64,000 bases of DNA from Daucus carota subsp. sativus (taxonomy: Eukaryota; Streptophyta; Magnoliopsida; Apiales; Apiaceae). Location: NCBI RefSeq assembly GCF_001625215.2, contig NC_030387.2, positions 5,174,501-5,238,500 of the forward strand, read 5' to 3'. Below, piece by piece: positions 17,808 to 42,022 of this stretch. Position 1 is the stretch's first letter, and each line of letters starts with the position of its first letter. A program made the position numbers and the translations under genes. The notes beneath the pieces are model-generated. The model saw nothing but the letters and a program-made list of their open reading frames with translations. It was not told the origin of the DNA and did no database searches.

Positions 17808-18467
17808 ATGAGTACGATGGATGATGAAAAAACCTTAGTCTCTAGCAAGCCTCATGTGATGTTCATTTCTTTCCCCTTACAAGGTCACATTAGCCCCATG
17901 GTACAATTCTCAAAGCGCTTGGTTTCCAAAGGCATCAAAGTGACCGTGGTCACTACCACCAGCTTAGATATTACAAATTCCAATTCCATAAACATTGAGC
18001 ACATTTTAGTTGACACTACATCACAAGGAAAAAGTTCTGCTGAAGCCATCGACGAATATCTAGCCGTACTGGAAACTGGAATTACTGAAAGCTTGCCCGA
18101 AGTCATTGAGAAGCAAACGACTGAGGGGTGGCCTGTTAAATTCTTGATATATGATGCACTCATGCCGTATGCTTTGGAAGCGAGCCAGAAGGTTGGTGTA
18201 CAAGGAGTTGCATTCTGTACTCACTCTTCTGCGGTTTTGGCCATATATTACCATGTTTATCAGAGGACATTGGATTTTAAGTCTTTGGAAGAGTCGTCTT
18301 CTGTCACATTGCCTTCGTTACCGCTGCTGGGAGTCGAAGATTTGCCTTCTTATCTTAATGAGATGAACCCTTACACAGGTTTGTTCACACTTTGTATGAA
18401 GCAGTTTCGGGGTCTGGAGAAAGCATATGGTGTCATGTTTAATACATTCGAGGAACTGGAAGGCGAG
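17808..18467 (+). CDS. Orphan UGT74-like first exon, copy 1
   Basis: A 220-codon open exon encodes the N-terminal, acceptor-binding half of a family 1 UDP-glycosyltransferase. The catalytic His is H27 (LQGHISPM) and the activating Asp is D116 (YDALMP). It ends GELEGE-like at GAG/GTTAGT, a good phase-0 donor at the conserved UGT74 intron position. Read through the donor, translation stops at 18533, giving 241 residues. No second exon (PSPG box) follows before the next first exon at 20243. It could be a dead remnant, could make an N-terminal-only protein, or could splice at long range to 32001. The sequence upstream (17591-17745) resembles that upstream of gene B. Confidence 0.85.
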
Positions 18468-18725
18468 GTTAGTAATTTCTTGCCCCCCATGGTTTCATTT
18501 CTGAACATGAGATTCCTGGTAGCAATAACTTAAGATTTGGACAAATTAAAATATGGTAGAGCCCCTCTGAATGTAATACGTAACTACAAGTTTTAACCTC
18601 TTCCATGCCTTTTAGTTTACCAGAGTGAACCAATTTTAGCATCAGAACCGCTAACAAGTTAGGGGTCGTTTGGATCATGGCACGGGGTTGTCCATTCCAA
18701 ATCCATCCACAGTGTTTGGTTGAAA

Positions 18726-19437
18726 AATTGTGTTCGAGCTCGAGCTCATTAACTAACGAGCCGAACAGGAGCTTGTTCGCGAACAAATACGAGACGAGTC
18801 GAGCCGAGCTAGAAAAAAAATAAGGTCAAATCGCTAGTTGACTCTTAAAATAGCTAACCAATTTTTTTTTTGAAACTTTGATTATTTCACTAAAAAATAT
18901 ATACGTTAACATCCATACGGTTGGATCGGTAAAGAATAATTTTTTAAAATATCGAAACACTAAATTAGGATTAAACACTAGTTAGCGGTACTAGTCAAAC
19001 CTATACTTGACTTTTAAAATAACAAACCAAATAAATTATTATTTCCCGAAACTTTGGTTACATCACTAAAATCTATATATATATTATATGTTGAATTCTG
19101 AATTCAATAACACATATATATTATAATAATACCCAAAAAATATTATATTTTTGCGAGTTTTAACGAGCCGAACTCGAGCCAAGCTTGAGCCAAACATACT
19201 AAAAGCTCGGCTCGAGCTCGTTTTCTTAAGAAACAAATTTTTGTATTCGAGCTCGAGCTCTTAACGAGCCGAGCTCGAGCCAAACATACTAAAAGTTCGG
19301 CTCGAGCTCGTTTTCTTAAGGAACAATTTTTTGTATTCGAGCTCGAGCTCTTAAGTCTTAACAAGGCGAGCCGAACAAGCTCTTAACAAGCCGAGTTCGA
19401 GTTTGTTCGCGAGCAGCTCAGTTCGTTAAATAGCCCT
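18726..19437. repeat. GAGCTC-rich hAT-like element with internal tandem duplication
   Basis: TTCGAGCTCGAGCTC and CGAGCCGAGCTCGAGCC recur throughout. Two roughly 100-bp units lie in tandem at about 19160-19355. The right end reads TAGGGCTATTTAACGAAC inward, in the style of the hAT element at 54122-55265. No matching left end or target duplication was found, so the left side is probably truncated. A second MITE-like end, AGGGGTCGTTTGGATCATGG, lies at 18661. Confidence 0.5.
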
Positions 19438-20242
19438 AATCACAAAGTTACAAGGTACACCGCATAACTATATTTTTCATTAGTATTCAAATTGCTACGT
19501 TGTTAGAGTAAAAATAATGATCCGAGTGAGAAATAATATGCAGACCACATTTTAAGGTGAATTTAAGAATCAATTTAAAGTTGATATAAACATAACAAGA
19601 TTTTGTTTTTGTTTTTTAAGGTTTATATACCACAAAATATCCTTAATCTCGTTAAATTCCCACCCAATCAATTTCAATCTTCAAACGAAATGGAATATAG
19701 AAATTGCTAAAGCGACGACAAAAACCAGTCATGGTCGATCTTGAGTTGTTGAGAGTGCTGACAGCATATGAAATGACAGCTAAACCATAAATTCAGGAAA
19801 CATAAGTCAATTTATTTTTGTTGAAAGAAACTAGTACACCGTATGAGAATATAAAAAACAGAGACAGAATACTAGAGACGAGATAAGCCGGCTAATTTTT
19901 TGTCATATATGAATCTCAAGGCTGGCTTGTTGTTTTCTTCACGAGATTGGCTTCTTGTTTTCTTTAGGCATCTTCTGTTATTGCTGCTCTTCCGCGGTCA
20001 GCTTGCACTAAAATTTCTGTTATTATACTCACTCCGTCCCACTTATATTTTTTACGTGTTTTTTTTTATTACCTTCGTATGTATACAGTAAAATACGTGT
20101 CAGTTCCTCTGTCCCGACGTAGCACAAAGTCGCGTAAGATTGTTTATTTAGAGCCCTCATCTACTAGCTTAACTTCAGCTAGCTTTACTACTACACATCT
20201 CCAAATTCTTTCAAGTCCACTTCAATTCGACGAGGGAACAAA

Positions 20243-20911
20243 ATGAGTTCAAGGGATGCAGAAGAAACTCTGATTGCTAACAAGCCTCACATTATGTTCG
20301 TTTCATACCCGCTACAAGGCCATATGAATCCGATGATACAATTCTCAAAACGTCTGGTTTCCAAAGGCATCAAAGTAACCATAGTGACTACAACGGCCAT
20401 AGAAGCCTCCTCGCTTGCCAAAACCAGTTCCATTAATATGGAGCACATTTCAATCGATACACCTCCATCAGACAGCGACACTCCAGACGTTATCAATGAA
20501 TTCCTAGTCCTTTTCAGGATTGGCATGACACGAAGCTTGCCCGGGGTCATTGAGAAGCAGAAGGCCAAGGGGTGCCCTGTGAAGATCTTGGTTTACGATG
20601 CACTCATGCCGTGGGCTGTAGGTATTAGCCAGAAGCTAGGCGTACAAGGAGTTGCGTTTTGTACTCACTCAAGTGCCGTTTTTGCCATATATTGCAATGT
20701 TTATTCCAAGACATTGGATATTGATTCTTTGGGAGAGTTTGAGAGGGTTGAATTGCCTGCCTTGCCGCTATTGGGGATCAGAGAATTGCCTTCTCTGGTG
20801 TATGATGTGGGCACTTATCAAGGATTGTCGAGACTCGTTGTGAGCCAGTTCGTGGAGATAGGAAAAGCAGAGTGTGTGCTGTTCAATACATTTGACAAAC
20901 TGGAACTCGAG
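20243..20911 (+). CDS. Orphan UGT74-like first exon, copy 2
   Basis: An intact 223-codon exon of the same subtype as copy 1 (shared KPHxMF, GVQGVAFCTHSSAV). The catalytic His is H27 and the Asp is D119 (VYDALMPW). It ends LELE at GAG/GTTAGT, phase 0. Read-through stops at 20971 (242 residues). No PSPG-encoding exon lies between it and copy 3. The frame is fully open, which argues against great age if it is a pseudogene. Function, if any, depends on whether it is spliced to a distant second exon. Confidence 0.83.
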
Positions 20912-21208
20912 GTTAGTCACTTCTCACTCACAATCAAAACTTCATTTTTAGATGAGCTAAGGAAGAATTAGAGCATTAAGTAAGAAAACCTTATAAATTA
21001 AGAACAGCTGTATTATTGTAGGATTGAAGAGAAAAAAATAGGAAATGGTTCTGCCTTCTTTGATAGGTCTCGGACCATTGATATTAGCGTGGTTAGAGTT
21101 GCTTCTAGATATACTTTCTGATGTGAAGTGTGAATGTGTGATTACAGTAAACCCAGCTAAAAAACACAAGACCTTAATATTTCTTGAACAGAATTAGGAA
21201 ACGTTAAA

Positions 21209-21456
21209 GTTGTGTTCACTTAGATGAATGAATTGCGGGAAGATGAAATGAAAAATTATAAAGGAGTTTTACAGAAACATGATGAAGAAGTGGAACATTC
21301 CTTCCAAAACATATGGTTAGATTTCTTGTTCAAATAGTTTGGAATGGAGTGATTGAAGGGAATAAAAAATTTAGACATTTTATCTGATCATCCCAAAATT
21401 ATTGTACAAATTTCATTACATTCATCCTCATTCTATCTGATCCAAGTGAACGCAGC
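21209..21456. mobile_element. Probable MITE
   Basis: The left side GTGTTCACTTAGATGAATGAA and the right side read inward (GCGTTCACTTGGATCAGATAG) are imperfect inverted repeats about 250 bp apart. The target duplication is not clear. There is no coding content. Confidence 0.45.
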
Positions 21457-21843
21457 GTGCACGCGGGGATAGGAATACAAAAGAGATCTTTAGGCACCAT
21501 TGGTTGCTCTTCTCGTGCAGATAGGACAAAGTATCAATATAATATTCACCCCTATCAATATCAAGTTAGTTCCATTTGACGTATTGGATGACATAAACAT
21601 GAAGCTGTCCATCGTGAATTGCTTCTGAAAACCACATGTTCTGGCTCTTTTCTGCAAGAATACTTGCGTATCCAGATGGATCTTTGGTTCAGTTTATTTA
21701 GAAAAGGAAACAAATTAGGCACAAATGATAACGAAGAAGCCTAATTGCTAGCAAGCCAAACATTATGTCCTCATGTTCTGTCATCTTCTGCCAGAGTCCT
21801 ATATAAGCAAAATGCATATCACGAAAGATCTTTAATTACAATC

Positions 21844-22522
21844 ATGAGCACACCTGATAACCAAGAAACGTTAGTTGCTGGGAAGTGTCACATTATGTTC
21901 ATTTCTCACCCATTACCATTACAAGGCCACCAGACCCCAATGATACAATTCTCGAAACGCTTTGTTTCTAGAGGCATCAAAGTAACCATAGTTACTACAA
22001 CTAGCCTAAAAACCTCCTCGAATGCCAAAACCGCTTCCATAAACATAGAGCACATTTCAGTTGATGAACCTTCATCACAAGGCGGTACTCCAGACAGTAT
22101 AGATGAATCCTTAGCCCTCCTAAAGGTCAGGGACTCGGGGTCACACGTGGCCTGCCAGAAGTCATTGAGAAGTACAAGACCACGGAGTGTCCTGTTAAAG
22201 TTCTGGTTTATGATCCACTCATGCCTTGGGCTTTAGACATTAGCCAGAAGCTAGGCATCCCAGGAGTTGCAGTTTGTACTCATTCGAGTGCGGTTTTCGC
22301 CATATATTACAATGTTTTTTCAAGAACATTGGATATTTATTCTGTAGGTGAGTTGTTTTCAGTTAAGTTACCTTCATTGCCAGTTTTAGGGATCAAAGAT
22401 TTGCCTTCTCTGGTATATGATCCGGGCGCTTATGAAGGATTAACCAAACTTTTTGAGAGTCAATTCCTGGATATGGACAAAGCAAGGGGTGTGATACTTC
22501 GTTTGAAGAATTGGAACGTGAG
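21844..22522 (+). pseudogene. Broken UGT74-like first exon, copy 3
   Basis: The copy starts at an ATG at 21844 (MSTPDNQETL) and is of the same subtype as copies 1 and 2, with LQGHQTPM and CTHSSAV. The frame breaks near 22122-22140, after LALLKV; the rest continues in another frame (GLPEVIEK, YDPLMPWAL). A second small deletion near 22497 breaks the NTFEELE motif. The donor is now GAG/GTCAGT. No second exon follows. It is a pseudogene of exon 1 only. Confidence 0.88.
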
Positions 22523-23099
22523 GTCAGTAACTTTTACTCCTGCTCATTTCTACTCTCACACATTCGGTCGGGAGTCTGGATTTTAATAATCGATAATTAT
22601 TTTTCATTCAAAAATTAATCGATAATTATTTTATAGCAAAAAAATCTGTACTATGGTGCTGTTTGACTGAGTTTAAAATAAGTGTTTATTGACTTTTTAC
22701 ACAAATGATACGAATAAATGCTTATAATTTATAAATCTAGAAGCCCAGCCTTTAATCCACAAAGAGCCCCTACGATTTTTTATGTATCTATAAGGATAAT
22801 GAGTCGATCCACGAATTTTATTCCTTCCATAATAAAAAATCATATATAAATTGTTGTTAATATCACTGGTCAGGATCATCTCCTTTCTATCGTATAGATG
22901 GAGTTTAGTTTGTACGTATGTGGACGCAAATGACTGTATATCACAACCCATATATATAGAGAACGAAGCCCAGGACAGTTATTTAATTATAAATTATTTT
23001 AAAATTATAATATATAATATACTATAATTAAGAAAATATTAAGAAAAATAAATTAATCAAAACCAACACCGGGAGCATAGACTATGACAGTATACATAG

Positions 23100-23400
23100 G
23101 AATCTACCCTGCATAAAAAAGTTTATGGTGGTGTTTGTTTGGAGCTTAAAAGCTCAGCTGGTTTATAAGTTATAAGCATTTATTCGTACTGTTTGTTATT
23201 CGTACTGTTTGTGTAAAAAGTCAAGAAGCACTTATAAAAAGCTAGGAATGGTAGTTATATAGTTTCAGGACATCTACTTCTCTCCCAAACACTTTAATCA
23301 CTTATAAATCTTAATTTACTTCTAATTTCTACTCTATTTTTTTATTTTAAGCAAGAAGCACTTATTTTAAGTTCACCCAAACCGGCCCCACGTGTCTGCT
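23100..23400. repeat. Possible MITE or old repeat
   Basis: GTGTTTGTTTGGAGCTTAAA on the left and GGGGCCGGTTTGGGTGAACT read inward from the right are similar to common plant MITE ends, with AAGCACTTAT repeats inside. No target duplication could be fixed. The rest of 22523-23809 and 24557-24700 is AT-rich and no gene was seen. Confidence 0.35.
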
Positions 23401-24707: not shown

Positions 24708-24748
24708 TCTCTCTGAATTTCATTGAGCAAATCAAGAGAATTATAGTC

Positions 24749-25411
24749 ATGACTCAAATGGAGAACAACGGAGAATCAAAGGCGAAAAAACCCAACATTT
24801 TGCTCATCTCTTTGCCATACCAAGGCCATATCAGCCCCATGATGCAATTCGCAAAGCGTCTAAGCTCCAAAGGAGCCAGAGTCACAATCATTACACCATT
24901 CTCCGCCAATGTGATCTCTGATAACAACTCCATCAACATCGAATACGTGTCCTATGATCACGAAGAAGGCCAAGTAGTCCTGACTGTCGAGGACTACATG
25001 GCCAACATCGAGAAAAGAGCATCTGATAAGTTGGTGCAAGTTATGGAGAAACAGAGGAGCTCGTGTGGCCGAGCCTTCGATGTCTTGGTGCATGATTCGC
25101 TGTTGCCATGGGGAGTGGACTTTGGACATGAACACGGCTTGAGAGTGGCTGTTTTTTTCACTCAGCCTTGTGCCATTTCCGCGATTCTTTACCTTGTGCA
25201 TCGAGGTGTAATTAAGTGTCCTGTGGAGGAAGGAACGGATTTGTCGTCGTTCCTTCCTGATGAGATACCGATTAGTCATGTTAAGGATCTGCCGTATGAC
25301 CTCTATCATGAACGTTATCCGGGAAGCGTAGATATGATGGGAAATCAATTCTTAAATGTTCATAATGCTGATTGGATCTTCTTCAACACTTTTCTTGGGC
25401 TGGAAGATGAG
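24749..25411 (+). CDS. Orphan UGT74-like first exon, copy 4 (second subtype)
   Basis: An open 221-codon exon with the catalytic His at H27 (YQGHISPM) and the Asp at D116 (VHDSLLPW). It belongs to a different subtype from copies 1-3, marked by VDFGHEHGLRV, EYMAN-like and LYHERYPG motifs, and shared with genes A and B. It ends GLEDE at GAG/GTTAGT, phase 0; read-through stops at 25429 (226 residues). The next downstream sequence is another first exon, so no own second exon is present. The open frame and intact donor suggest recent loss of exon 2 or use of a remote one. Confidence 0.83.
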
Positions 25412-25920
25412 GTTAGTACTCCCTTGTAGTATATTATCTAAAGATTAAATTTTGATTACTTGAGATTTTAGATGATAATAACTTACTATCTAATATAATG
25501 CTACTTTACAGATAAGATATTATCCTCAGATATTGATTTATTCAGAATGAATATCACAAGATTTCAACAGAGAATTTAAGATCATAGTACAATATAAGAT
25601 CCTAAGAAATTATTATTCAAATCCTCCTGAAAGGGAAAATAATCCGAATGATCGGTACTATTATGAAGATGTATGCCATTATTTTTTATGTCAAGTTCTA
25701 ACAACCAGAGGAGTTAGGACTGAAAGTGAGTTGAGAATGATGAGAACACCCCATGTTTTGTTGATTGCACATCCGTTCCAAGGTCACATTAGTCCGATGA
25801 TGCAATTCAGCAAGAGGTTAGCCTCGAAAGGCCTAGAAGTGACAATGGTTTGTCCCTCTTCCGCCATTGTCCTTAACAACTCAATCAAAATTGAGTATTT
25901 TTCCTATGGAAATGACCAAA

Positions 25921-28797
25921 CACTACGCCATATATGGCCTACGACAACATCAAAAAAATGATGCCATAACCCCAAAATATGTTGCCATAGCCCGAAAAAG
26001 GGCTATTGCAACATAAAATTTAAGTTGCACTTTTGCATGCTGCCTTAGGCTTCTATTGCAACATTTAGGTAACCTACTGCAACACGGCTTTTTATGTTAC
26101 AATAGACGTTCTATTGCAACATCTGACTATCCTATAGCAACAAATATATTATGTTACATTACACCTTTTGATTTGAAAAGAAAAAGGGGGACCCACATGT
26201 GGGTCACACTTGTAGGTCCCACTTTTTGAGTCCACGTGGATCCCACATGTGGGTCCCACATGTTAGTCCCATGTTTGGACACCTATTTTGTAGTCCCATG
26301 TTTGCAACAAATTTATAAAAGAAATTTAAAATATGCTCTTTAAATATTAAACATTCCAATAAACTATTCTTTCTTACAAATTTCATAACAAATCCAACCA
26401 AATCAAATTACCTAACAATTCAAAACCAACTAAAAGTAACAACAATTAGCCTGTGCTCTCTAGCCTTTTCTCTAAAATACACCCTTCTCCATACGTAAAT
26501 GAAGTGCAGGATATGTGATTCCAAAGCTGTGACGATAGGAGTCATCTGTTCCACTAGCAAGAAACCCAAGCCTAGTGAAATCCTTGAGCCATTTCCACAT
26601 AATCTTCATTAACAGCATGGACCGCAGCATCAAAAAAAAATTTGTATATTTTGCTGGATGGAGAAACAAAAGCAATTAATATAAATACTTAATTAATATC
26701 ACAATCAATATACTTGGAACAAATATTTTAGAAAGCCCAGGTCGTTTTTACTTGCGCGTAAACACAATCAATGACACAAGTGAAGAGAGTCAGATATTCA
26801 CTATAGAGAGATACTCGAGTAAATCACACTGTAACTTTAACATACTTCACATTAGCAAAGACAGGGGTTTCAAAAATTAAAGTCTCGTATGCTGCATTGC
26901 TTACTGAGTATTATCACATTTAACTATACAAATGAGCTAGACAATCAATTTGTATAAGGACTTCATTTAAAATACTAAACAAAACCTTCTGATTAATCAA
27001 TAATCGCATATTACTCATAGAACAGGAAGGCGGCTAGAAATTCATTCAAAAGACACAAAGGTTAAATGTATACAGAAGAAAACTCGGTATTTTGATGGAT
27101 TTTATTAGGTTTAGGAGTACTTTTTATCAAAAGCACATACTCCAGCTCTGTAGTTATCAAAAATACCCTATAATTCTGTATAAACAAATAAAGTTGTGTT
27201 ACATTGAGCAATATAGGAATTAGAGGGGCATTTTACATGATAAATATAGTATAAGATGATTACCTCAACCCCACGAGAGCAGTAGGCAAACTAATCTGAC
27301 TCCTTCCTGGCTTTAGCTTCACTAGGGTCTCAAAAGCTTAATTATTAACATCATATTTAGCCAGAAAACAACTTCTTACATAGTAAATCTTTACTACTAA
27401 TAATTATCAAGTCAGGGGAAGAACAATAATACAATACAAGTTTACAACATCAGGGGAAGAACGATGCCGGCTCTGTAAACAGAGAGTTCAAATCATATGG
27501 CAGATATATACAACAAAAAAAGAACCAGTGCTTTCTAGAAAAACTACGTGCAACATTATACTGATTCCTGAACAAATCAACTCAACAAGTCAAATGCCTA
27601 TAAAAAATTACAACATTCAAGACAAACTATAAAATCAGAATGTTCCCATTAGAGTTAAGAGAGAGGGAGGGAGAGACAGAGGGGAGACAGAGACACACAC
27701 AGAGAGAGAAGGAGAGAGAGGGAGACAGAGAGATGTGTAACATAACATACGACCACAAATCAAAACAAAGATAGACAATGCATTTACACATAAAATCTAA
27801 AACAAAGCATGTGTATTTAAAGTGAAAAGCAAAGGATGACCACAAATCTAAGCAGATCGAAACCCCAATTAAAGTGAAAAGCTGTTGAAGCCCTAGTTTC
27901 AGAAGCCCCAATTCCCAATTCAATCGAAGCCCTGAGAAAAATAACGACACAAAATTAAAAATATTTTAGTGATAAAAACGAAGAAACTCGTAAACAAATT
28001 TAATGAAACTATAAATCAGAAGCCCTGATTTCGCGGAATAAAGAACCTCTCAATAAAATCCCTAATTGAAGACCTGAAACAAAACTTTATTCGATTGAGA
28101 GGTGAGTATGAGGGGAGAGGTTCCCCGATTTTTTCTAATCGACGGTGCGTTTCAGCAGGGAGGTGAGAGGAGATGAGGATGAGCAGAGAGGTTTAGCAAG
28201 AGAGGTGAGGTGAGGTTAGGTGAGTGTAGAGAGTGAGGTGAGTGTTTGTTGAGTGAAATGTGAATATGTCTGAGTCTCTGACTCAAATGTGAAGCGGGAA
28301 GTTTGCCGCTCATATTTTTAGCACGCCCCCAAAAATATTTTTTGTTTATTTTTTGTTTTAATAATTCATTTTATTTTCAATTTCTTAATTGTTAAATATA
28401 TAAATATTTTATATATTTTATAATTTTAATGATATACTTCAGTTACGGTGTTATTTTTTTATACATAATTAATTAGGTTCATATTTTGTTATTTAATTAT
28501 TTTAAAGAGATGACATAAAAATAATATTGTATTCCAAAATTATGTTTATTCATGTTTAATATATTCTATTTTATTAATTAATCATTTGAATGTATTTTAG
28601 CTTTATTTTGTGCAAATTTTAGTATTACAAATAATTATTTTACTAATACTCTTTGCAACACATAATTTTGGCTATTGCAACATCAAATAGACATGAATGT
28701 TTATCGTTGCGATAGGTGTCGATTAGTGTCTCTAATGCAACATAATTTTGCAACACTCGCGTTCATACCATTGCGGTAGGCCATATATGGCGTAGTG
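25921..28797. mobile_element. CACTA-type transposon (2877 bp), non-autonomous
   Basis: The element begins CACTACGCCATATATGGCCT and ends in the exact reverse complement; the perfect inverted repeat is 22 bp. It is flanked by the 3-bp duplication AAA (25918-25920, 28798-28800), as expected for the CACTA superfamily. Subterminal repeats of the form CTATTGCAACAT recur near the left end (about 26000-26140) and right end (about 28660-28755). No transposase was recognised in the interior, so it is probably non-autonomous. A GA-rich tract lies at 27657-27735. The short minus-strand frames inside have no known domain. Confidence 0.92.
27657..27735. repeat. GA-rich low-complexity tract
   Basis: A purine-rich tract of GAGAGAGGGAGG, GACAGAG and CACACAGAGAGAG units lies inside the CACTA-type element. 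It accounts for the Ser/Leu-rich minus-strand open frame there. Confidence 0.8.
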
Positions 28798-29320
28798 AAA
28801 CATCCAAAACCCCGAAAGAGTACATGGCTAATATCCAAAAACAGGCATCGGACAAGTTGGTTCAAGTCATAGAAGATCAGAAGAGATGTGGGCGCCCCTT
28901 TGATGTCCTTGTGCATGATTCACTGATGCCATGGGCAGTGGATTTCGGACATCAACATGGTTTAAGAGTAGCTTGTTTTTGCACTCAAACTTGTGCAGTT
29001 AACGCGATTTATTATCTTGTGTTTCAGGGGAACTTTAAGTTCCCCCTCGAGGAAGGATCTAATCTATCCTTCCTTCCGCCTTCAATACCTATTAGAGATG
29101 TCAAAGATCTTCCTTCCGACCTTTATGATGAACGTCATCCAGGAGTGTTGGATGTGCTTGCAGGCCAATTTTCTCACGCTCATAAAGATGATTGGATACT
29201 CTGCAACACTTTTCTTGAGCTCGAAAATGAGGTTAGCATTGTTAAATATTCTAACAGTGTCAAGTCCAGCGTCATGTGTGACTTATCGAGTTATCTTGTA
29301 CTCCCTCCGTCCCTATTTAT

Positions 29321-30372: not shown

Positions 30373-32735
30373 ATGGAAATGATGAAAATTCCCCATGTTT
30401 TGTTGATTTCGCTTCCGTTCCAAGGTCACGTTAGCCCCATGGTGCAATTCACCAAGAGGTTAGCTTCCAAAGGCCTACAAGTCACATTTCTTTGTCCTTC
30501 TTCCACCATTGTCCTTAACAATTCTGACTCCATCAACATTGAGTACATCTCCTATAAAGATGATCCAACAGTCCGAAACTCGGAAGAATATATGGCTAAT
30601 ATCCAAAAACATGCATCCGACAAGTTGGTTCAAGTCATTGAAAAACAGAAGAGGTGCGGTCACCCCTTCGACGTCCTTGTGCATGATTCACTCATGCCAT
30701 GGGCAGTTGATTTTGGACATCAACATGGTTTGCGAGTAGCTTCTTTTTTCACTCAAGCCTGTGCAGTGAACGCGATTTTTTACCTTGTGTTCCAAGGGAA
30801 ACTTAGGCCCCCCCTCAAAGAAGGATCTTGTTTATCCTCCCTCCCGTCTTCAATACCTGTTAGAGACTTTAGAGATCTTCCTTCTGACCTTTATGATGAG
30901 CGTCGTCCAGGAGCCATAGAACTGCTTGCAAGCCAATTTTCCCATGTTCAGAAAGATGACTGGATACTCTGTAACACTTTTCTTGAGCTCGAAACTCAGG
31001 TTAGCTTTGTTGAATATATTACCAGGTCAAGTACTATAAGATTTTAGTTGCCCCTTAGTTATGAAGTCGTAAATTATGTTTTTCTTCTATATATTATCAA
31101 TAACTTGCATCATATAACTTGCATTCAAGATATTTTACAATCTTGAACATGTATATATTTTTTAGATATAGATATATGTTACTATTACTTATTAGCGTCA
31201 GCCATTTATACTGCCCCATAAACATATATTGGTGGAATCGAAAATATTGTTGAAAGTTTTATATATTATGTTCAAAAATATATTTATCTATGGAGATTTG
31301 ATTATGTATATTTTGTCAAAAGATCAAGACTGAATCATCCCGAAGCTTGACTGAACTTTTGAAAAAGCTTGACAGAACTTACCCTGTTAATCCAATTGTC
31401 AGTCGTGACTCATGCCCTGGATTTTGGATATAAGTAGGAAGGTTGGTTTAACAGTTTTGACAAGCTTGAGAATGAGATAATATCTTGTTACTTGGATGTC
31501 GTTTTAAGGTTTTCTTTCTTTTGTTGAGATGAGGTAGGCTTTGGTATATTATATTGTGGATGAGTCTTGCAAATGAGGTGGGTTGTTTTAGCACTTGATT
31601 AAACTGACCATGCGGCAAAATATTACAGCAAGCGCTGTTGATTTAGGGTTATTTCTTCATAGAACAATATTTGAGGTCGAATATTATGCTGTCTTCGTCT
31701 TTGGCAATGTGCAATATATTGGAAGTTCAGTTGGACTTTAAAAATGATCCATCTCACAGTGCACTTTCTCTTTGCCACCACTGAGGACCAGAACTTAACG
31801 TGCATTTAGGCCAAGATATTGAATATGCATATGCAATAAACTTGCCAGGTTCAAGTCATTATGTTTTCCACATTTCGTACTTCATTACAATTTTCATGTA
31901 TTTACTGGTTCATCTGATCTAATTTTTATGTTCCTGATTTGTACAACAAAATCTCTTAACTTCAGAATGTTTGTAATCAGCACAAGACACTTTCTTTCAG
32001 GTTGTGAATTGGTTGTCAAGCAAATGGAAAATTATGACCATAGGACCATCAGTTCCATCAATGTTCTTGGACAAGCGATTAGCTGATGACAGAGACTATG
32101 GGCTCAGCCTCTTCAAGCCCGAAGGAGAAGCATGCATCAAGTGGCTAGATGAGAAAGATACTGACTCAGTAGTCTATGTGTCATTTGGGAGCTTAGCCAA
32201 CCTGGTGCAAGACCAAATGGATGAAATAGCTTGGGGCTTGTTGAACAGCGAATGCAACTTTTTATGGGTAGTCAGAGATACTGAAAAGAGTAAGCTTTCA
32301 GAAAAGTTCATTGAAGAATCTGCTGACAGAGGCCTGATTGTGAACTGGTGCCCTCAACTCGAAGTCTTGGCCCACGATGCTGTAGGGAGCTTCATGACAC
32401 ATTGTGGTTGGAACTCAACTCTTGAGGCTTTGTCTTTGGGTGTGCCAATGATGGTACTTCCTCAGTGGACGGATCAAACAACTAATGCCAAGTACATTGT
32501 GGATGTATGGAAAACTGGTGTTCGAGTGAAAGCGCATGACAAGGAGAGCATCACAAGGGAGGACATAACTAAGTCTGTGAAAGATGTCATGGAGGGAACA
32601 AAGAGGGAAGAGCTGAAAACCAATGCCCTTAAATTGAAGGAAATGGCTATAGAGGCAATGAGTGAAGGTGGAAGCTCTGATAAGAATATCGACGATTTCA
32701 TTTCAGAAATTGTGAACCCTACCACCTCTACCTGA
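30373..32735 (+). CDS. UDP-glycosyltransferase, UGT74-like, gene A (chimeric)
   Basis: Two exons, 30373-30999 and 32001-32735, join at phase 0 to 453 residues, the usual UGT74 length. Exon 1 holds the catalytic His H19 (FQGHVSPM) and Asp D105 (VHDSLMPW). Exon 2 holds the 44-residue PSPG donor-binding box (about 325-368, WCPQLEVL to QWTDQ, with HCGWNSTLEAL). Family 1 UGTs move a sugar, usually glucose, from UDP-sugar to small acceptors in the cytosol; UGT74 members act on hormones, phenolics and terpenoids. The acceptor cannot be told here. The ATG used by gene B is mutated, so translation starts at 30373. The 1-kb intron contains a dead first exon of the gene C type (31323-31476), showing that exon 1 was replaced. 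Confidence 0.92.
31323..31476 (+). pseudogene. Fossil C-type UGT first exon inside the intron of gene A
   Basis: This stretch aligns with gene C exon 1 from about codon 82 to 120: it keeps TACCCTGTTAAT, CATGCCCTGGATT-like and TGGATATAAGTA. It then jumps by deletion to the last codons of that exon (AGTTTTGACAAGCTTGAGAA). The old donor GAG/GTAA of gene C reads GAG/ATAA here, so it cannot be used. Downstream to 32000 the intron is homologous to the intron of gene C (for example GTCTTGCAAATGAGGTG). Confidence 0.88.
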
Positions 32736-33371
32736 ATGTCGTGTGCTGATTGTTCTGCTCTCGTGTAGGATTTTGTGGGAAGTAGAATATAGGGCTTGGA
32801 GGGAGTTTTTCGTATCTTTGAGTTGGCAAAGCTGGTACAAGAATTTAAATTTTATGGTAGAAGAGGTACTTCATACCAATTATACAGACATAATGTCAAC
32901 TAATACTGGCATCAATTTGAAATTTATTAATGTTCTGGAATACCTGCAATTTGCTCATCAGTATTTATCTTTTTGCTTAGCAGTACTACTTTTCAACATT
33001 ATTATCGGCACCGATTTGAATTGCATAATGTTCTATGAGATATAAAATGGTCATCAGTATTTTATAATATTAGAAGAAAACAATAATAGCTTGAAGCGTA
33101 TTTAATTTTTCTGAACTCATTTGAGAAAAAATTTGTCCCAATTTTTGTTTGGTCTTTCCATTTGCAACATGGATGTTTTTTTATTAAACACTGATGGCGC
33201 TTCTGGCACTGGCAGTAGATGTATAGATAACTGGGAGTTTGAGGCCTTATTTGTAATGCTTATGGAGTGTGGTTTAAAGGTTTTATGGTCGAGTTGTGGG
33301 TTATTGAGCGAGTCCTGGGCATAGCCTTGCGATCTTCATCTTCCTCACCTATGTCTTAAAATGGATTCTCT

Positions 33372-34086
33372 CTCCAAAGAGGTCACATTAGTCTGATAAT
33401 GCAATTCAGCAAGTCCTGGTTCCGCCATTGTCCTTAACAACTCAATCAAAATTGAGTATTTCTCTTATGAAAATGACCAAACATCCCAAACCCCGGAAGA
33501 ATAGATGGCTAATATCCAAAAACAGGCATTGGACAAGTTGGTTCAAGTCATAGAAGAACAGAAGAGATGTGGCCGCCCCCTTGATGTCCATGATTCACTG
33601 ATGCCATGGGCAGTGGATTTCGGACATCAACATGGTTTAAGAGTAGCTTGTTTTTTCACTCAAATTTCTGTGGTTAACGCGATTTGTTATCTTGTAATAC
33701 AAGGGATCTTTAAATTCCCCTCGAGGAAGGATGTAGGGCCGTTGGGACAAGTTTAAAAAAAGTGATTCGCTTAAGGTAAAGAAATGGATTAAAAGTCAGA
33801 AGTTAATAAATTAAGAAAATGTTTGGAAAAAAGTAGAAGCTCTATAAGAAAAGTTAGCATTTTCAGCTCTAAAAAAAACTTCCACTTGTCTACGCAAACG
33901 GATCAGGATGTCAATAGTTGCTTCTGCTGAACAAACAGGGCGTAGTCTATCCTTCCTTCCGCCTTCGATACCTATTAAAGATGTCAGAGATCTATCTTCT
34001 GACCTTTATGATGAACGTTATCCAGGAGTGTTGGATGTGCTTGCAGGCCAATTTTCTCACGCTCATGAGGATGTTTGGATACTCCG
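33372..34086 (+). pseudogene. UGT74-like first-exon fragment, copy 7
   Basis: This is a remnant of the same subtype as copy 5. It begins at AGGTCACATTAGTCTGAT, lacks about 40 bases after AATTCAGCAAG, and has a stop (TAG, 33502-33504) just before MANIQKQA. It lost a few codons before HDSLMPW, carries a 207-bp insertion at 33736-33942, and is cut off at about 34086 in the DxWIL motif by another transposon end. It preserves the empty site for the CACTA element in copy 5 (ATGACCAAACATCC). Confidence 0.9.
33736..33942. mobile_element. Short MITE inside UGT fragment 7
   Basis: Compared with genes A and B, 207 extra bases lie between the codons for EEGS and the LSFLPPS segment. The insert starts GGGCCGTTGGGACAAG, ends AACAAACAGGGC, and is flanked by TA, or GTAG if counted loosely. 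The weak inverted ends (GGCC-TTTG) fit a small Harbinger- or mariner-like MITE. Confidence 0.6.
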
Positions 34087-34543
34087 CGGTGTTCTAAAAG
34101 TCGGCGATTAATCTTGATTAATCATGATTAATCGCCGATTAATCGCTGTTCGGTCGGCCACCGTCTCGATTAAGCGTTAATCGGTGAAAAAATTGTTTTT
34201 TCTGAAAATCGGGTTTAATCGGAAAAAATCGGTGAATTTAAAAAATTTAAAAATAAAAAGTAAAAAAATTTTAAATTTTTAAATTTAATTCTTATTTTAG
34301 TAGGAAAAATTAAAAAGAATGAGTTATACTCTCTCGGTTAGGATATAGTAAACACTTAACTTATTTTCACGCACTTTTAAAAATTTTCACAGTACATTTA
34401 TAAATATTATTTTTAATAATTTCTTTTTGTGAATAAAAAATAGCACTAATATTTTATTCACAAAGAGAATATTTTAAAAATAATATATATAAGTAACCGG
34501 TTAAAATTCTTGAAAGTTGTGAAAAAAAGTCGACTATTATATC
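34087..34543. repeat. Truncated hAT-like end and old mariner-like sequence
   Basis: At 34088 GGTGTTCTAAAAGTCGGCGA resembles the end of the MITE at 29321 and is followed by GATTAATC-rich palindromes, but no partner end was found. From about 34325 a second repeat starts (ACTCTCTCGGTTAGGATATA); its other part seems to resume after the hAT element at 34544-35361. Confidence 0.45.
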
Positions 34544-35361: not shown

Positions 35362-35369
35362 ATTATATC

Positions 35370-36210
35370 CTATGTTAGAGAATAAAACTGAAGCAGCTGT
35401 CCAAATAGTAAAAAATATATAAACCGGATGAGACGGAGAAAGTAAATGAAAGTGAAGTTATTGCAAGCGACAACATGTTAAAATGAAAGAGGAACAACAT
35501 GACATGCTCAAATGAACTATTGATATCATTAAAAGAAAATGTGTCATTTTGAGATCATAATATGTTTTTTGAGAATAATTTTTTTTAAAGATATAATTTA
35601 AGTAGAATTAAATATTAATATATTGATATATAATAAATTCTATATCTCAATAATGATAGTTTAAAAAAATAAATTATAAATATCATATTTTTAATAAATT
35701 AATAAATTTAAAAAGTTTATATACCTGTGCTTGACATGGGTCATAAAAATTTAAAAAGTTTATATAATCTCATGCTTGCACGCTTTATAAACTAGTATAT
35801 AGATATCATGTTTTTTTCGGATTTTAAGAACGGTAAGCACTAAAATCCAATAAAATTTTGGGTCTCAAAGTCAAATCTAAATCCAAGATATCAGATTTGA
35901 TATACTCCCTCAGTCCCACTAGGAAGCTTACATACACTGTTTGCACGTATTTTGAGACTCTCGTAAAATATAGTTCTATAACGTATTTTTGATTTTTTCT
36001 TTTTTTGAATAAAAGTTTAAACTTCAAATTTTTTTCCGGATTTTTTTTAAATATATATATATAATGTAAATATACTTTATAAAAATCTAAAATGTATGCC
36101 AAAAAGTAACGTAAAGAATCTGGTGGTACGGTGGGAGCATTCATTTTCGGATTTGCGATCATGTATCTGTCAGATGGGTGGATAACACGTTAGGTAGAAA
36201 AGAAAGAAGA
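35370..36210. other. AT-rich intergenic DNA upstream of gene B
   Basis: No gene. At about 35904 ACTCCCTCAGTCCCACTAGG looks like a Stowaway-type left end. A direct repeat around AATTTAAAAAGTTTATAT occurs at 35707-35765. Confidence 0.45.
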
Positions 36211-36310
36211 ACACACAGTTTGAAATACTTGCGACGTATTCAGATTTCCACATAATACAACTGACTGACCTGTTTTGAAATGAAAGGTAAACAGAACTTC
36301 CAGTTCTACA
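36211..36310 (+). promoter_or_regulatory. Upstream region of gene B, similar to that of UGT copy 1
   Basis: CACACAGTTTGAAATA, AGATTTCCACATAATACAA and TTTTGAAATGAAAGGTAAAC, followed by AGAACTT, match in order the region 17591-17725 upstream of copy 1, allowing gaps. Gene A, the near copy of gene B, has an unrelated sequence here. The similarity between A and B resumes at TGTAGGAAT, a few bases before the ATG at 36368. Confidence 0.65.
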
Positions 36311-36367
36311 AAAAAAAAATCTTAATTAGAAACAAGGCAAAGTAGGTCTTGCCAATAAGTTGTAGGA

Positions 36368-38592
36368 ATGGAAGGAGTTGGAATTGAGAGTGAGCTGAGA
36401 ATGATGAAAACACCCCACATTTTGTTGATTTCACTTCCTTTCCAAGGACACGTTAGCCCCATGGTGCAATTCACCAAGAGGTTGGCTTCCAAAGGCCTAC
36501 AAGTCACATTTCTTTGTCCCTCTTCCACCATTGTCATTAACCAATCGGACTCCATCAACATTGAGTACATCTCCTATAAAGATGGTCCAACAGTCCAAGA
36601 CTTGGAACTTTATATGGCTAATATCCAAAAACATGCATCCGACAAGTTGGTTCAAGTCATCGAAAAACAGAAGAGATGTGGTCATCCCTTTGACGTCCTT
36701 GTGCATGATTCACTCATGCCATGGGCAGTTGATTTTGGACATCAACATGGTTTAAGAGTAGCTTCTTTTTTCACTCAAGCCTGTGCAGTTAACGCGATTT
36801 ATTACCTTGTGTTCCAAGGGAAACCTAGGCCCCCCCTCGAGGAAGGATCTAGTTTATCCTCCCTCCCACTTTCGATACCTGTTAGAGACTATAGAGATCT
36901 TCCTTCTGACCTTTATGATGAGCGTCATCCAGGATCCATAGAACTGCTTGGAAGCCAATTTTCCCATGTTCAGAAAGATGATTGGATACTCTGTAACACT
37001 TTTCTTGAGCTCGAAACTCAGGTTAGCTTTGTTGAATATATTACCAGGTCAAGTACTATAAGATTTTAGTTGCCCCCTAATTTTGAAGTCGTAAATTATG
37101 TTGCCCCCCCCCCCTCCTTGTGATGTTTCTACAATTCATTATCATACAAGTAAAGGATCTTTGAAAATTCTATTGGAGGATGGAAATGTGGTTTCCTTTG
37201 GCTTCGATTCTGCCTGTGGAGAGATGTGATTTGCCTTCTTTTGTTTCAGATCCCGTGTGTTGGACCTTGTTCTTGATAGGTTCTTTAATTTTTTAATTTG
37301 ATTGTTGTTTGTTTGTTAACAGGTTTGACAAGCTTGAGAATGAGATAATATCTTGTTACTTGGATATCGATTTAAGGTTTTCTTTCTTTTGTTGAGATGA
37401 GTCTTGCAAATGAGGTGGGTTGTTTTAGCACCTCATTAAACTGACCATGCAGCAACATTTTACAGCAAGCGCTGTTGATTTTGCGTTATTTCTATCATAG
37501 ATATTGAGGTCGATATTATGCTGTCTTCGTCCTTGGCAATGTGCAATATATTGGAAGTTCAGTTGGACTTTAAAAATGATCCATCTCACAGTGCACTTTC
37601 TATTTGCCACCACTGAGGACCAGAACTTAAGGTGCATTTAGGATAAGATATTGAATATGCATATGCAATAAACTTGCCAGGGATAAAAAAAAATCCCAAG
37701 CCAAGTTTAAGTCATTAATGTTGTCCACATTTTGTACTTTATTACAATTTTCATGTCTTTATTGGTTCATCTGATCTAATTTTTATGTTCCTGATTTGTT
37801 CAACCAAATCCCTTAACTTCAGTATGTTTGAAATCAGCGCAAGACACTTTTTTTCAGGTTGTGAATTGGTTGTCAAGCAAATGGAAAATTATGACCATAG
37901 GACCATCAGTTCCATCAATGTTCTTAGACAAGCGATTAGCTGATGACAGAGACTATGGTCTCAGCCTCTTCAAGCCCGAAGGAGAAGCATGCATTAAATG
38001 GCTAGATGAAAAAGATACCGACTCAGTAGTCTATGTGTCATTTGGGAGCTTAGCCAACCTGGTGCAAGACCAAATGGATGAAATAGCTTGGGGCTTATTG
38101 AACAGTGATTGCAACTTTTTATGGGTAGTCAGAGATACTAAAAAGAGTAAGCTTTCAGAGAAGTTTATTGAAGAATTTGCTGACAGAGGCCTAATTGTGA
38201 ACTGGTGCCCTCAACTGAAAGTCTTGGCTCACAATGCTGTAGGGAGCTTCATGACTCATTGTGGCTGGAACTCAACTCTTGAGGCACTGTCTTTGGGTGT
38301 GCCAATGACGGTATTGCCTCAGTGGATGGATCAAACAACTAATGCCAAGTACATTGTGGATGTATGGAAAACTGGTGTTCGAGTGAAAGCGCGTGACAAG
38401 GAGAGCATCACAAGGGAGGACATAACTAAGTCTGTGAAAGATGTCATGGAGGGAACAAAGAGGGAAGAGCTTAAAACCAATGCCCTTAAATTGAAGGAAA
38501 TGGCTTTAGAGGCAATGAGTAAAGGTGGAAGCTCTGATAAGAATATCGACGATTTCATTTCAGAAATTGTGAACCCTACCACCTCTACCTGA
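36368..38592 (+). CDS. UDP-glycosyltransferase, UGT74-like, gene B (chimeric)
   Basis: Exons 36368-37021 and 37858-38592 join at phase 0 to 462 residues. The catalytic His is H28 and the Asp D114. The PSPG box spans about 334-377 and reads QWMDQ at its end where genes A and C have QWTDQ; it also has HNAV in place of HDAV or HKAV. Exon 1 and exon 2 are near copies of gene A; a tandem duplication explains both, including the 3' flank to about 38880. Its upstream region instead resembles copy 1. The 836-bp intron holds a dead C-type first exon (37115-37344). The enzyme should use a UDP-sugar in the cytosol; the acceptor is unknown. Confidence 0.92.
37115..37344 (+). pseudogene. Fossil C-type UGT first exon inside the intron of gene B
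   Basis: This aligns with the last third of gene C exon 1 (codons about 125-211): TATTATCATAC-like, AGTAAAGGATCTTTGAA, GATTTGCCTTCTTTTGTTTC and CTTGTTCTTGATAGGTTCT are kept, with frame breaks. It ends AAGCTTGAGAATGAG/ATAA, with the same GT-to-AT donor change as in gene A. It retains a different portion than the fossil in gene A, so each copy lost different pieces after the duplication. Confidence 0.92.
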
Positions 38593-38910
38593 ATGTCGTG
38601 TGCTGATGGTTCTGCTCTCGTGGAGGATTTTGTGGGAAGTTGTATGTAGGGCTTGGAGGGAGATTTTCGTATCTTTGAGGTGGCAAAGCTGGTACAAGAA
38701 TTGCAATTTTATGGAAGAAATAGTACTTCATACCAATTATACAGACATAATGTCAACTAAAACTGGCATCAATTTGAATTTATTAATGTTCTGGCATATC
38801 TGCAATTGCTCTTCAGTATTTAACTTTTACTTAGTAGTGCTACTTTTCAACATTATTATTGGCCCCAATTTGAATTGCTAATGTTCATCAGTATTTTTAT
38901 TATGGATTTT

Positions 38911-39069
38911 CTAGTGTGTGTCTATGGACGCACACTAACAACCATTTTTGAGTTAGGTGGTGGATTTCTATGGGCTCCCATCTCATTAATAATGATGGCC
39001 CTCGTGCAGGTACAAAAATCTTCACCAATGAAAAATATTTTGTTAGTTGTGCCCATAGGCACACAGTAG
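38911..39069. mobile_element. Small MITE downstream of gene B
   Basis: CTAGTGTGTGTCTATGGACG on the left and CTACTGTGTGCCTATGGGCA read inward from the right form inverted ends about 160 bp apart. A related end (TAATGTGTGCCTAAGGGCAC) lies at 39830. The rest of 39070-40150 shows no gene; GTTTTGTTA-GATTAAAAGAAC-AACG units recur at 39600-39750. Confidence 0.6.
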
Positions 39070-40187
39070 AAAGACCCATACAACTATTATTTTAGAGAGA
39101 AAGATAATACCAGGGCCCAGGGCCCCGGGCAAAATCTTAAGTATACCTTAAATATAAAGCTTATAGTCAGTGTCTGGAAAATAGAAAGCTAAGGTAAAAA
39201 AAAGGGTAAGCTAGCTCTTGGTCAGTAGTTTTATAGAGCATATAGATAGTTTTTGACTGATCATCAGGCATCTAAAATTTTTATGCCTTTTTATTGAAAT
39301 TCATCTTCTTGTTTTCAATAGCTGCAAAAATTTGGAGTTTTAATCGTTGTCTAATCTTTTAGGATTTATTTTTCATTTTTCATAAATATATAACTGTGTA
39401 ATAAATAAATAATGACTAATCCATCACTCATTTCATACTGAATAAACATAATTGAGTCTAACATTACAAATTACTATTTTCTTATAACATTTTCTGAATG
39501 TCTCTTATTTTTCTATATATTACAATTTTTCAATACTAATACATTTTTGTAATATAAAATTACTTTGGTTCACTTTTTTTTCAATTATCAAGTTGGCGTT
39601 TGTTAGGATTAAAAGAACAAAACGTCATTTCATGCAGTGTTTTGTTATGATTAAAAGAACAGAACGCTACATTGTCCAGCGTTGTTAAAGTTAGGAATAT
39701 AAAATCCTATTTCATATAATGTTTTGTTAAGGTTAAATAAAAAACGACTTAGCGTTAGCGTTATTCAGATAAATTAGTGTATTTGGGATCATTTTATCTA
39801 ACTTTGTTATTTTGAATATCGGTTTTTCTAATGTGTGCCTAAGGGCACACAATAAACAGAATCATAAAAGTGGCTTATTTTGATTGATTGGTAGAATTTA
39901 TGTAAAGTAAACATTTATTATCCATCCACCATAAAAAAGAGTTAGTTATTATTGTGTACTCATAATCACACCATAGAAAATTCGTTTGAATATTATGGTG
40001 TGTTTTGTGAAATCCGGGACCTTTTTTAAGCTGCGTACGGGGGCGATGCGAATGACCAATTTCCTCTTTTCCTCTTTTCCTCTGCTCTGACAACAAAGTC
40101 AAAGATTAGTTGGGTGGCCTGAAATTAAAGAGATAGTACTAATGTGTGTTTTTATAATAATTTCCACAACACGATCATTTTCAAATC

Positions 40188-42022
40188 ATGGCTGCCAAAA
40201 TTCATGTATTTGTAGTGGTATACCCAGTTCAAGGCCATATAAATCCGATGCTACAGTTCTCCAAACGATTAGCATCAAAAAACGTCAGAGTTACATTGAT
40301 CACCACCTCTTCCTACAAGAATCTCAATGATAATCAACCCTCTAACCCCACCGTCTTCTTTGATTACATTTCCGATGGATTCTCCGGTGAAAAGCCACCG
40401 GGGATTGCTGATTTCGTCGAAACATTCAAGGCCGAATCGTCCCGGAGCTTGCCGGAACTTATTGAAAAACAGAGCAAAACAGAGTACCCTGTTAATGCCA
40501 TTGTGTATGATTCGTTCATGCCTTGGGTTCTGGATATAAGTAAGGAGTTTGGGTTATATGGGGTGTCGTTTTTCACGCATTCTTGTGCTGTTTCTACGAT
40601 TTATTATCATACGAGTAAAGGGTCTTTGAAGATTCCGGTGGAGAAGGGGAATGTGGTTTCTTTGCCTTCGATCCCGCCTTTGGAGGTGTGTGATTTGCCT
40701 TCTTTTGTTTCGGATTTGGATTCGTATCCGGGCGTGCTGAAGCTTGTTCTTGATAGGTTCTCTAATTTTGAAGGGGCTGATTGTTTGTTTTTCAACAGTT
40801 TTGACAAGCTCGAAATTGAGGTAAATTGGGATTTCAATTTAAGTTTTTTTGTTTTTTTGTCATGTGAGAAATTAGGATTTTGATTCTGATAAGTCTTGCA
40901 AATGAGGTGTTGATTAGGCTTCCGAAAACTTGATACTGAATGATGTTTTGTTGGGAAATATAGTCGAATATCATGCTGTCTTTATCTACGTTCATGTGTA
41001 ATACGTTGGAAGTTCAATTAGACTTGAAAAATGATCTCTGTCTTTCTCACAATGCACTTTCTATCTGTCGCATCCAAAGCAGAGCTGAAAATAACTGTCC
41101 AGAAACATGTGGTGGATTCAAAAAATCGCTAGCCAAGTTCCAGTCTTTATGCTCTCCATGTTTAAACTTCTATGCAAATTTCATGTCTTTAGCGGTTCAT
41201 TTAATCTAATTTTATTTTGCCCTCACCGTGAACATGGAAATTTTGAATTGTAGTATGCTTTTAATCAGGCAAGTCAATTTTTTTCAGGTTGTGAATTGGT
41301 TGTCGAGCAAATGGAAAATTATGACCATAGGACCATCAGTTCCATCAATGTTCCTAGACAAGCGATTAGCTGATGACAGAGACTATGGCCTCAGCCTCTT
41401 CAAGTCCGATGGAGAAGCATGCATCAAGTGGCTGGACGGGAAAGATACAGAATCAGTAGTGTATGTGTCATTTGGGAGCTTAGCCAACCTTGTGCAGGAC
41501 TACATGGATGAAATAGCTTGGGGCTTGTTGAACAGCAAATGCAGCTTTTTATGGATAGTTAGAGATACTGAAAAGAGTAAGCTTTCAGAGAAATTTTTAG
41601 AAGAAGCTGCTGACAGAGGCCTGATTGTGAATTGGTGCCCTCAGCTTGAAGTTTTGGCTCACAAGGCTGTAGGGAGCTTCATGACACATTGTGGCTGGAA
41701 CTCAACTCTTGAAGCATTGTGTTTGGGTGTGCCAATGATGGTAATGCCTCAGTGGACGGATCAAACAACTAATGCCAAGTATATTGTGGACGTATGGCAA
41801 ACTGGTGTACGAGTAAAAGCCCATGACAAGGAGAGCATTACAAGGGAGGACATAACTAAGTCTGTCAAAGATGTCATGGAGGGAACAAAGAGGGGAGATC
41901 TTAAAGCCAATGCTCTTAAATTGAAGGAAATGGCCTTAGAGGCAATGAGTGAAGGTGGAAGCTCAGATAAATATATGGATGATTTCATATCTCAAATTGT
42001 GACCCGGACCACCTCGACCTGA
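40188..42022 (+). CDS. UDP-glycosyltransferase, UGT74-like, gene C
   Basis: Exons 40188-40820 and 41288-42022 join at phase 0 to 455 residues. The catalytic His is H17 (VQGHINPM) and the Asp D108 (VYDSFMPW). The PSPG box spans about 327-370. Exon 1 is the classic UGT74 type (FDYISDGF, FFTHSCAVSTIYYH, FFNSFDKLE) and differs greatly from exon 1 of genes A and B, while exon 2 is nearly the same as theirs. The 467-bp intron is the parent form of the 3' parts of the A and B introns. Gene C is thus the best candidate for the original, unrearranged gene. A weak TATA-like TTATAATAA lies about 35 bases upstream of the ATG. Substrate unknown. Confidence 0.94.

Follow-up and report, generated by a model that had tools for sequence, protein, structure and literature searches.

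According to one account (PMC1885805), the vertebrate UGT1A (Ugt1) locus consists of tandem variable first exons, which encode the acceptor-binding part of the enzyme, followed by four constant exons for the donor-binding part, with dead first exons within the array. The same account treats this variable/constant arrangement, seen in Ugt1, Gcnt2 and Ugt2a, as vertebrate-specific, and it describes clustered protocadherins in which variable first exons are spliced to constant exons (PMC1885805). The array of UGT74-type first exons studied here in carrot resembles UGT1A, as described there, in its tandem variable first exons ahead of a constant part, dead first exons included. It differs in that the constant region is made of four exons in vertebrates and of one exon, present in three copies, in carrot. 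The clustered protocadherins share this exon layout but belong to an unrelated protein family. Ordinary plant UGT74 genes with two exons contain the same two halves with the same junction, but they have one exon 1 per exon 2. There was no sign of descent of the array from vertebrate UGT1 among the named relatives listed, which are all plant proteins. We consider it probable that this is an Apiaceae UGT74 locus with variable first exons and a constant second exon, built like UGT1A and of separate plant origin. A literature search covering mostly journals outside subscription found no description of plant UGT first exons that have a second exon in common.

The window (the whole stretch of DNA analysed, 64 kb of carrot chromosome 7) carries the array entirely on the + strand. 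Six intact first exons stand against three second exons. Each of the six is open from its ATG to a phase-0 donor: A1 (17808–18467, 220 aa), A2 (20243–20911, 223 aa), B1 (24749–25411, 221 aa), B2a (30373–30999), B2b (36368–37021; it was also taken from a later ATG, 36395, and the reading frame is open from 36368) and C (40188–40820). The second exons are copy 1 (32001–32735, 244 aa), copy 2 (37858–38592, 95.9% identical to copy 1) and copy 3 (41288–42022, 90.6% identical to copy 1), and all begin in phase 0 directly after TTTCAG. B2a is annotated as joined to 32001 (DCAR_0727277; P0018, 100% identical) and B2b as joined to 37858 (DCAR_0727278; P0019, 100% identical), while C adjoins copy 3. A1, A2 and B1 are orphans without a second exon of their own.

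The stretches derived from first exons total 11, and those that are not intact are broken, split or reduced to remnants. A3 (21844–22522, +) is broken by a frameshift. B2x is split by a 2.9-kb transposon into a 5′ part (25737–25920, +) and a 3′ part (28798–29231, +); the inserted element (25921–28797) is of CACTA type, 2,877 bp long, with inverted ends of at least 19 bp (CACTACGCCATATATGGCC) and AAA on either side. An uninterrupted relative exists (P0134). A broken remnant of a B2x-type first exon, previously placed at 33372, occupies 33366–34087 (+), and two remnants of C type are embedded in introns, one in that of B2a (31310–31476, +) and the other in that of B2b (37117–37344, +), both having lost their donor by the same GT to AT change. 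The genes at 30373 and 36368 splice over these dead C-type first exons, which favours the variable-first-exon reading. The first-pass annotation had reported nine first exons and three second exons on one strand. Its positions and strand were all confirmed, and its count was incomplete by the two C-type remnants; 25737, which it had listed as a first exon, holds as a 5′ part only and not as a whole exon.

The donors of the six intact first exons and of broken A3 match the consensus at 7 of 9 positions, sites as good as this occurring by chance at 1.4 per kb, and the donor of the split B2x exon matches at 6 of 9. The earlier claim that the three open orphans end at phase-0 donors fitting the second exons in frame proved correct, with GAG/GTTAGT at 18467, 20911 and 25411 and a phase-0 start of exon 2. 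The first exons may have separate promoters; TATA-like motifs are found upstream of three of the eight first exons (A3, B1 and B2a) and upstream of neither A1 nor A2, which is near background, as 28% of 200-bp stretches contain such a motif.

By sequence, the first and second exons of the array belong to the plant family-1 UGTs, UGT74 group. Exon 2 (32001–32732) matches the C-terminal UDPGT domain PF00201 (E 9.7e-29), and residues 13–456 of the 463 of carrot protein P0002 match the solved structure of UGT74F2 (E 3.5e-114). Pfam gave nothing at E ≤ 0.001 in the first exons A1 and B1, and only a sub-threshold match in A2. A UGT74 exon-1 profile matched A1 (E 1e-78) and B1 (E 5.4e-71), close relatives of both being included in that profile. 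Among 48 aligned proteins, the QGH motif is nearly invariant and an Asp is invariant, and both are present in A1, A2 and B1. We take the His of QGH to be the catalytic residue and the invariant Asp to be its partner. Beyond carrot, celery and hogweed, the closest named relative of exon 2 among the matches listed is Centella UGT74AH1 (73%).

The number of second exons was examined at three scales. A second-exon profile, from whose alignment hogweed P0001 with its two tandem first exons was left out (1 of 103 rows), gave three matches at E < 1e-127 in the 64-kb window, the rest being at E ≥ 3.3. No match at E ≤ 1 was obtained in the 10 kb beyond the window on either side. In the 441-Mb genome assembly, where 150 of the 272 first-look candidates were scored, second exons of this kind were represented by the three copies of the array (100, 96 and 91%), the next one being at 59%. 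Each of the best 7 UGT74-like first exons outside the array is followed on the same strand by an exon 2, at gaps of 104–2,629 bp. The excess of first over second exons in the array is therefore larger than expected by chance. Loss of second exons through an assembly error is unlikely, since joinings of orphan-type first exons to second exons occur in four further assemblies (two of celery, one of hogweed and a second one of carrot), and no other genomic copy of the second exon was found.

The plainest alternative, already raised in the first-pass annotation, is that the orphans stem from ordinary tandem two-exon duplicates whose second exons have disappeared, the first exons being in decay. 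Decay does take place in this array, as seen in the frameshift at 21844, the transposon-split exon at 25737, and the remnants at 33372 and in the two stretches of 40188 type, and for 21844, 33372 and these two stretches the description is apt. It fits 17808, 20243 and 24749 poorly. These three are open, their donors are intact, and they have open celery orthologues (for 24749 also a hogweed one) at 70–80% identity: celery isoform X1 (70%) for A1, celery P0004 (73%) for A2, and celery isoform X2 (77%) and hogweed P0020 (80%) for B1. Carrot P0002 (94.5%) is a further orthologue of A1. Neither tblastn nor the second-exon profile found any remnant of exon 2 between the orphan first exons, and the space from 25411 to 25737 is only about 0.3 kb. 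A simulation of neutral drift to these identities (2000 runs each) left no stop in a fraction of 0.0175 of the runs for A1, 0.0315 for A2 and 0.064 (celery) or 0.094 (hogweed) for B1. As the carrot exon served as stand-in for the ancestor, without indels and with frameshifts uncounted, these odds are moderate for each exon, small and not tiny, which leaves the decay reading some room. It is also favoured by the fact that no carrot reference (DCAR) protein was found for A1 or B1 in a database clustered at 90% identity, which could hide one. First-exon dN/dS was 0.20–0.39 in seven full-length pairs and 0.19–0.29 in three pairs with the partial B2x; judging from these ratios, the first exons are evolving under constraint, although values between paralogues are compatible with a recent death of one exon. 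Also, the celery gene models attach the orthologues to an exon that they share. Taken as an account of the orphans, decay is in our opinion unlikely.

It is in these gene models that sharing, posed earlier as a hypothesis, finds its support. RefSeq isoforms generally rest on RNA-seq. A single "74AE2-like" celery gene in RefSeq has four named isoforms, X1–X4, all assigned to a contig of the same length, whose first halves are only 35–57% identical to one another and whose second halves of 244 aa are 100% identical. Their first halves match carrot 17808 (X1), 24749 (X2), 40188 (X3, 89% identical to C) and 30373/36368 (X4), the pairing of B2a and B2b with X4 being made by identity only (73%, against 57% for 24749). 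In the second celery assembly, the A2 type (20243) is joined to the celery shared exon with 1 aa difference. In hogweed P0020, the B1 type (24749) is joined to a second exon of the same family. In the second carrot assembly, P0002 joins the A1 type to an exon 99.2% identical to the one at 32001 (96.3% and 90.6% to the other copies). The search for a like array in related genomes, suggested together with the hypothesis, led to celery and hogweed models that join carrot-type first exons to a common family of second exons.

Such isoforms could be software artefacts on a decaying array, gene predictors being capable of bridging an orphan first exon to the next second exon. Models at such loci can indeed err: in hogweed P0001 one A-type first exon is joined to another, after which the model runs into the intron without exon 2, and the first half of celery P0021 is mostly garbled. 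However, the joining is repeated in four models of celery RefSeq, one clean model of the other celery annotation, one of hogweed and one of the second carrot assembly, always with an identical phase-0 junction. Bridging also fails to explain why two genera have kept these classes of first exons open although they lack second exons of their own. We regard it as improbable, the least credible of the explanations weighed here.

In the variable-first-exon reading, the N-terminal, acceptor-binding half of each enzyme would be encoded by its first exon. Transcription from the distal exons 17808, 20243 and 24749 would continue across the nearer ones, which, being first exons themselves, require no acceptor site; the distal donors would then be spliced at the first real acceptor, that of the second exon at 32001. 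The corresponding introns would span 6.6–13.5 kb, which is long for a plant. The expected products are full and presumably active enzymes with varying acceptor halves and one common sugar-donor half.

The first-exon tree (quick search, SH-aLRT) united carrot and celery sequences within A1 (98), A2 (96), B1 (99) and C (100), four orthologous classes. Between first exons, dS was 0.81 for A1–A2, 1.25–1.36 for B1–B2 and 1.48–2.85 between classes, and it was 0.14–0.33 between the copies of the second exon. The first exons are thus old paralogues and the second exons young copies, so the former predate the parting of the present second exons. Copying of units is visible in the carrot array. In the history that we propose, the array would originally have had A1, A2, B1, B2 and C ahead of one second exon, a layout that the celery models retain, and the 3′ part (B2x–B2–C–exon 2) would then have been copied to give the three second exons of carrot. 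The first two units would have lost a working C, and the third has no B2. The shared set would in this way have been partly resolved into ordinary two-exon genes, A1, A2 and B1 remaining dependent on a shared exon. The constant region is accordingly not strictly single in carrot, which has three copies, while in celery all 4 of the RefSeq isoforms are modelled with a single second half. In the second-exon tree, the five celery rows group together (99), and carrot copy 3 (41288) is separated from copies 1 and 2, being placed with the celery and hogweed sequences at weak support (81). The copying may therefore predate the carrot–celery split, with a possible later loss of copies in celery.

The same units might have a simpler past, in which rearrangement brought second exons of C type behind 30373 and 36368 and made ordinary two-exon genes of them, with no present sharing in carrot. 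In its favour, each carrot second exon does have a near first exon of its own, and the introns of both genes contain C-type remnants with an identical destroyed donor. Yet this history does not explain the open A1, A2 and B1, and carrot P0002 joins A1 to an exon of the 32001 type. We judge it about as doubtful as the decay of the orphans.

Sharing may also reach further in time and in taxa. In hazel (Corylus avellana), isoforms X1 and X2 of a mogroside IE synthase-like gene have first halves 59% identical and second halves 100% identical, and in walnut F2P56_016083 and F2P56_016084 have first halves 61% identical and second halves 100% identical, two first halves being seen in each case. From the protein models, these pairs perhaps represent the same sharing in a smaller form; recent duplication or gene conversion could also account for the walnut pair, which carries two locus tags. 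The broader proposal is a tentative one, its prospects slightly short of even: that an Apiaceae array of about five UGT74 first exons has shared exon 2 since before the carrot–celery split, that the distal exons can use more than one constant exon in carrot, and that Fagales (hazel, walnut) came to the same design independently.

If sharing at this locus is true, it would be a clear case of convergent gene architecture within one enzyme superfamily, between plants and vertebrates. It would also offer plants a cheap route to diversify acceptor specificity, and inventories of plant UGTs that count two-exon genes could overlook enzymes with orphan-looking first exons. Carrot seems to be one step further, its constant exon having been multiplied and its array dissolving into ordinary genes.

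The array lies on carrot chromosome 7, the window being positions 5174501-5238500 of contig 7 in an assembly that comprises 441 Mb in 11 contigs. UGT74-like first exons of three classes (A, B and C) stood in a tandem row on the + strand. Class A consisted of A1 (17808), A2 (20243) and the frameshifted A3 (21844), and class B of B1 (24749), B2x (25737/28798, split by a CACTA-type element), B2a (30373), a B2x remnant (33366-34087) and B2b (36368). Class C was represented by the first exon C (40188) and by two remnants at 31310-31476 and 37117-37344. The three second exons, at 32001, 37858 and 41288 on the + strand (copies 1, 2 and 3), showed 88-96% mutual protein identity. The first-pass annotation had counted nine first exons for three second exons. 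The second exons were all recovered, and six first exons proved intact, A3, B2x and the one at 33366 being damaged. A profile search (102 aligned rows, i.e., 100 database proteins and two window constructs) detected no fourth exon 2, whole or broken, in the window or the 10-kb flanks on each side. The proteins DCAR_0727277 and DCAR_0727278 were 100% identical to exons 30373+32001 and 36368+37858, respectively.

The element interrupting B2x measured 2,877 bp (25921-28797), with inverted ends of at least 19 bp and AAA flanks; P0134, a relative on a public contig, was uninterrupted and lacked this insertion. Also, 74 bp upstream of A1 (17571-17644) and of B2b (36191-36264) shared 77% identity, although the exon proteins were only about 39% alike; this similarity may reflect either a common upstream element or a repeat. 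On the - strand, an open frame at 12861-13412 resembled, by eye, part of a copia-type retrotransposon polymerase.

The layout of the array is unusual within the carrot genome. Outside the array, the seven sequences most similar to the C first exon were each followed on their own strand by a second exon, at gaps of 104-2,629 bp as measured from the match ends. The exon 2 of the array was found genome-wide in three copies only, the next match having 59% identity (150 of the 272 first-look candidates scored). For A1, the best outside match covering most of the exon reached 44% identity, and short ones (39-50 residues) up to 58%.

The orphans, i.e., the intact first exons A1, A2 and B1 with no second exon of their own, presented open frames and retained QGH and the partner Asp. 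Their donors, previously described as good, indeed matched 7 of 9 consensus positions, on par with those of annotated genes. First-exon dN/dS ranged between 0.20 and 0.39 (seven full-length comparisons). In a neutral-drift simulation that ignored indels, 1.75% (A1), 3.15% (A2) and 6.4% (B1) of pairs were stop-free at celery identity, and 9.4% for B1 at hogweed identity. These values argue for constraint on the orphans during most of the time since the carrot-celery split, not for present activity.

The proposal to look for the same array in related genomes proved fruitful, as gene models in celery, hogweed and a second carrot assembly join these classes to exon 2. A protein search with the exon-2 half gave 2,277 matches above the cut, with celery accounting for 6 among the 120 matches listed. 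Four, on a contig of one length, bore the name "UDP-glucosyltransferase 74AE2-like" with isoform numbers X1 to X4. Their second halves (244 aa) were identical and their first halves showed 35-57% mutual identity; these first halves corresponded to carrot A1 (70%), B1 (77%), C (89%) and B2 (73%, to 30373). The other two, P0004 and P0021, came from a second celery assembly, both under the name AgCh_018833. P0004 carried an A2-type first half (73%) and P0021 just the end of a B2-type one, preceded by garbled sequence; the two shared the same second half, which differed from the RefSeq celery one by a single residue. Hogweed (Heracleum sosnowskyi) P0020 joined a B1-type first half (80%) to an exon 2 of the array kind, and carrot P0002, from the other assembly, an A1-type half (94.5%) to an exon sharing 99.2% identity with 32001. 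Counter-evidence came from hogweed P0001, two consecutive A-type first exons with translation running into the intron. In a database clustered at 90%, where one could hide, no DCAR protein was found for A1 (lengths about 256-812 aa) or B1 (about 149-470 aa). Five more exon-1 proteins came from short contigs. Four (P0131, P0132, P0134, P0135) retained the donor codons (E-V-S) and continued into the intron at the same point, as expected of genomic DNA; P0133 stopped before it.

Trees of the two halves were obtained by quick search with SH-aLRT support. The first-half tree (47 rows: nine database array relatives, six window exons, Centella, Panax and every third other row) united carrot and celery within A1 (98), A2 (96), B1 (99, including hogweed) and C (100); carrot B2 and celery X4 fell within the B class (99) but could not be told apart from B1 there. 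In the second-half tree (44 rows), all 12 array rows formed a single group (99), and five celery rows clustered (99). Such deep first-half splits against one shallow second-half group are the hallmark of constant-exon sharing.

The array falls into units 1, 2 and 3, each holding the exon-2 copy of that number. All three share copied intron and exon-2 sequence: DNA identity was 91% between 31448-33033 and 37316-38886, and 84% between 31676-32740 and 40963-42027. In units 1 and 2, broken C first exons sit within the B2 introns. Since both remnants carry the same GT to AT donor change (31477 and 37345), this loss probably predates the parting of these units. Given these remnants and the B2x-type exon preceding both units, the order in the copied part was B2x, B2, C and exon 2, with several first exons ahead of a single second exon. 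The first exons diverged from one another long ago (dS 0.81 between A1 and A2, 1.25-1.36 between B1 and B2, 1.48-2.85 between classes), the exon-2 copies recently (0.14-0.33). Gene conversion among second exons could imitate this pattern, but not the celery finding of identical second halves. The copying of exon 2 may itself be older than the carrot-celery split, as copy 3 fell weakly (81) with hogweed and celery in the second-half tree, and copies 1 and 2 with carrot P0002 (92).

A first exon requires a promoter and a donor and can do without an acceptor. A transcript begun at A1 would therefore carry A2, A3 and the B exons within its intron and splice to the first acceptor, at 32001. The resulting introns would measure 13.5 kb (A1), 11.1 kb (A2) and 6.6 kb (B1). 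UGT1A runs on the same logic of promoter and donor with no acceptor. The UGT1A-like sharing suggested by the first-pass annotation holds for the layout and for the shared second halves in celery gene models; the long-range splicing of the orphans to 32001 is what we infer. The likeness lies in the variable-first-exon/constant organisation, which PMC1885805 terms vertebrate-specific for Ugt1, Gcnt2 and Ugt2a, whereas carrot has three constant exons, with B2 beside copies 1 and 2 and C beside copy 3. Our literature search found no plant description of a UGT locus with a shared second exon; the component parts are already known, and the isoforms already present in celery gene models.

We also screened all pairs among 103 aligned rows for exon-2 identity of at least 97% with exon-1 identity below 70%. 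The first threshold was reached by 34 pairs, 14 of which passed the second; 12 of these belonged to the celery and carrot set, two being one carrot pair repeated via a window construct. The other two were hazel (Corylus avellana) isoforms X1/X2 (P0043/P0046) and walnut (Juglans regia) F2P56_016083/016084 (P0051/P0055), with first halves 59% and 61% identical, respectively, and second halves 100% identical. Exon sharing may therefore recur in UGT74, with hazel and walnut as candidates outside Apiaceae.
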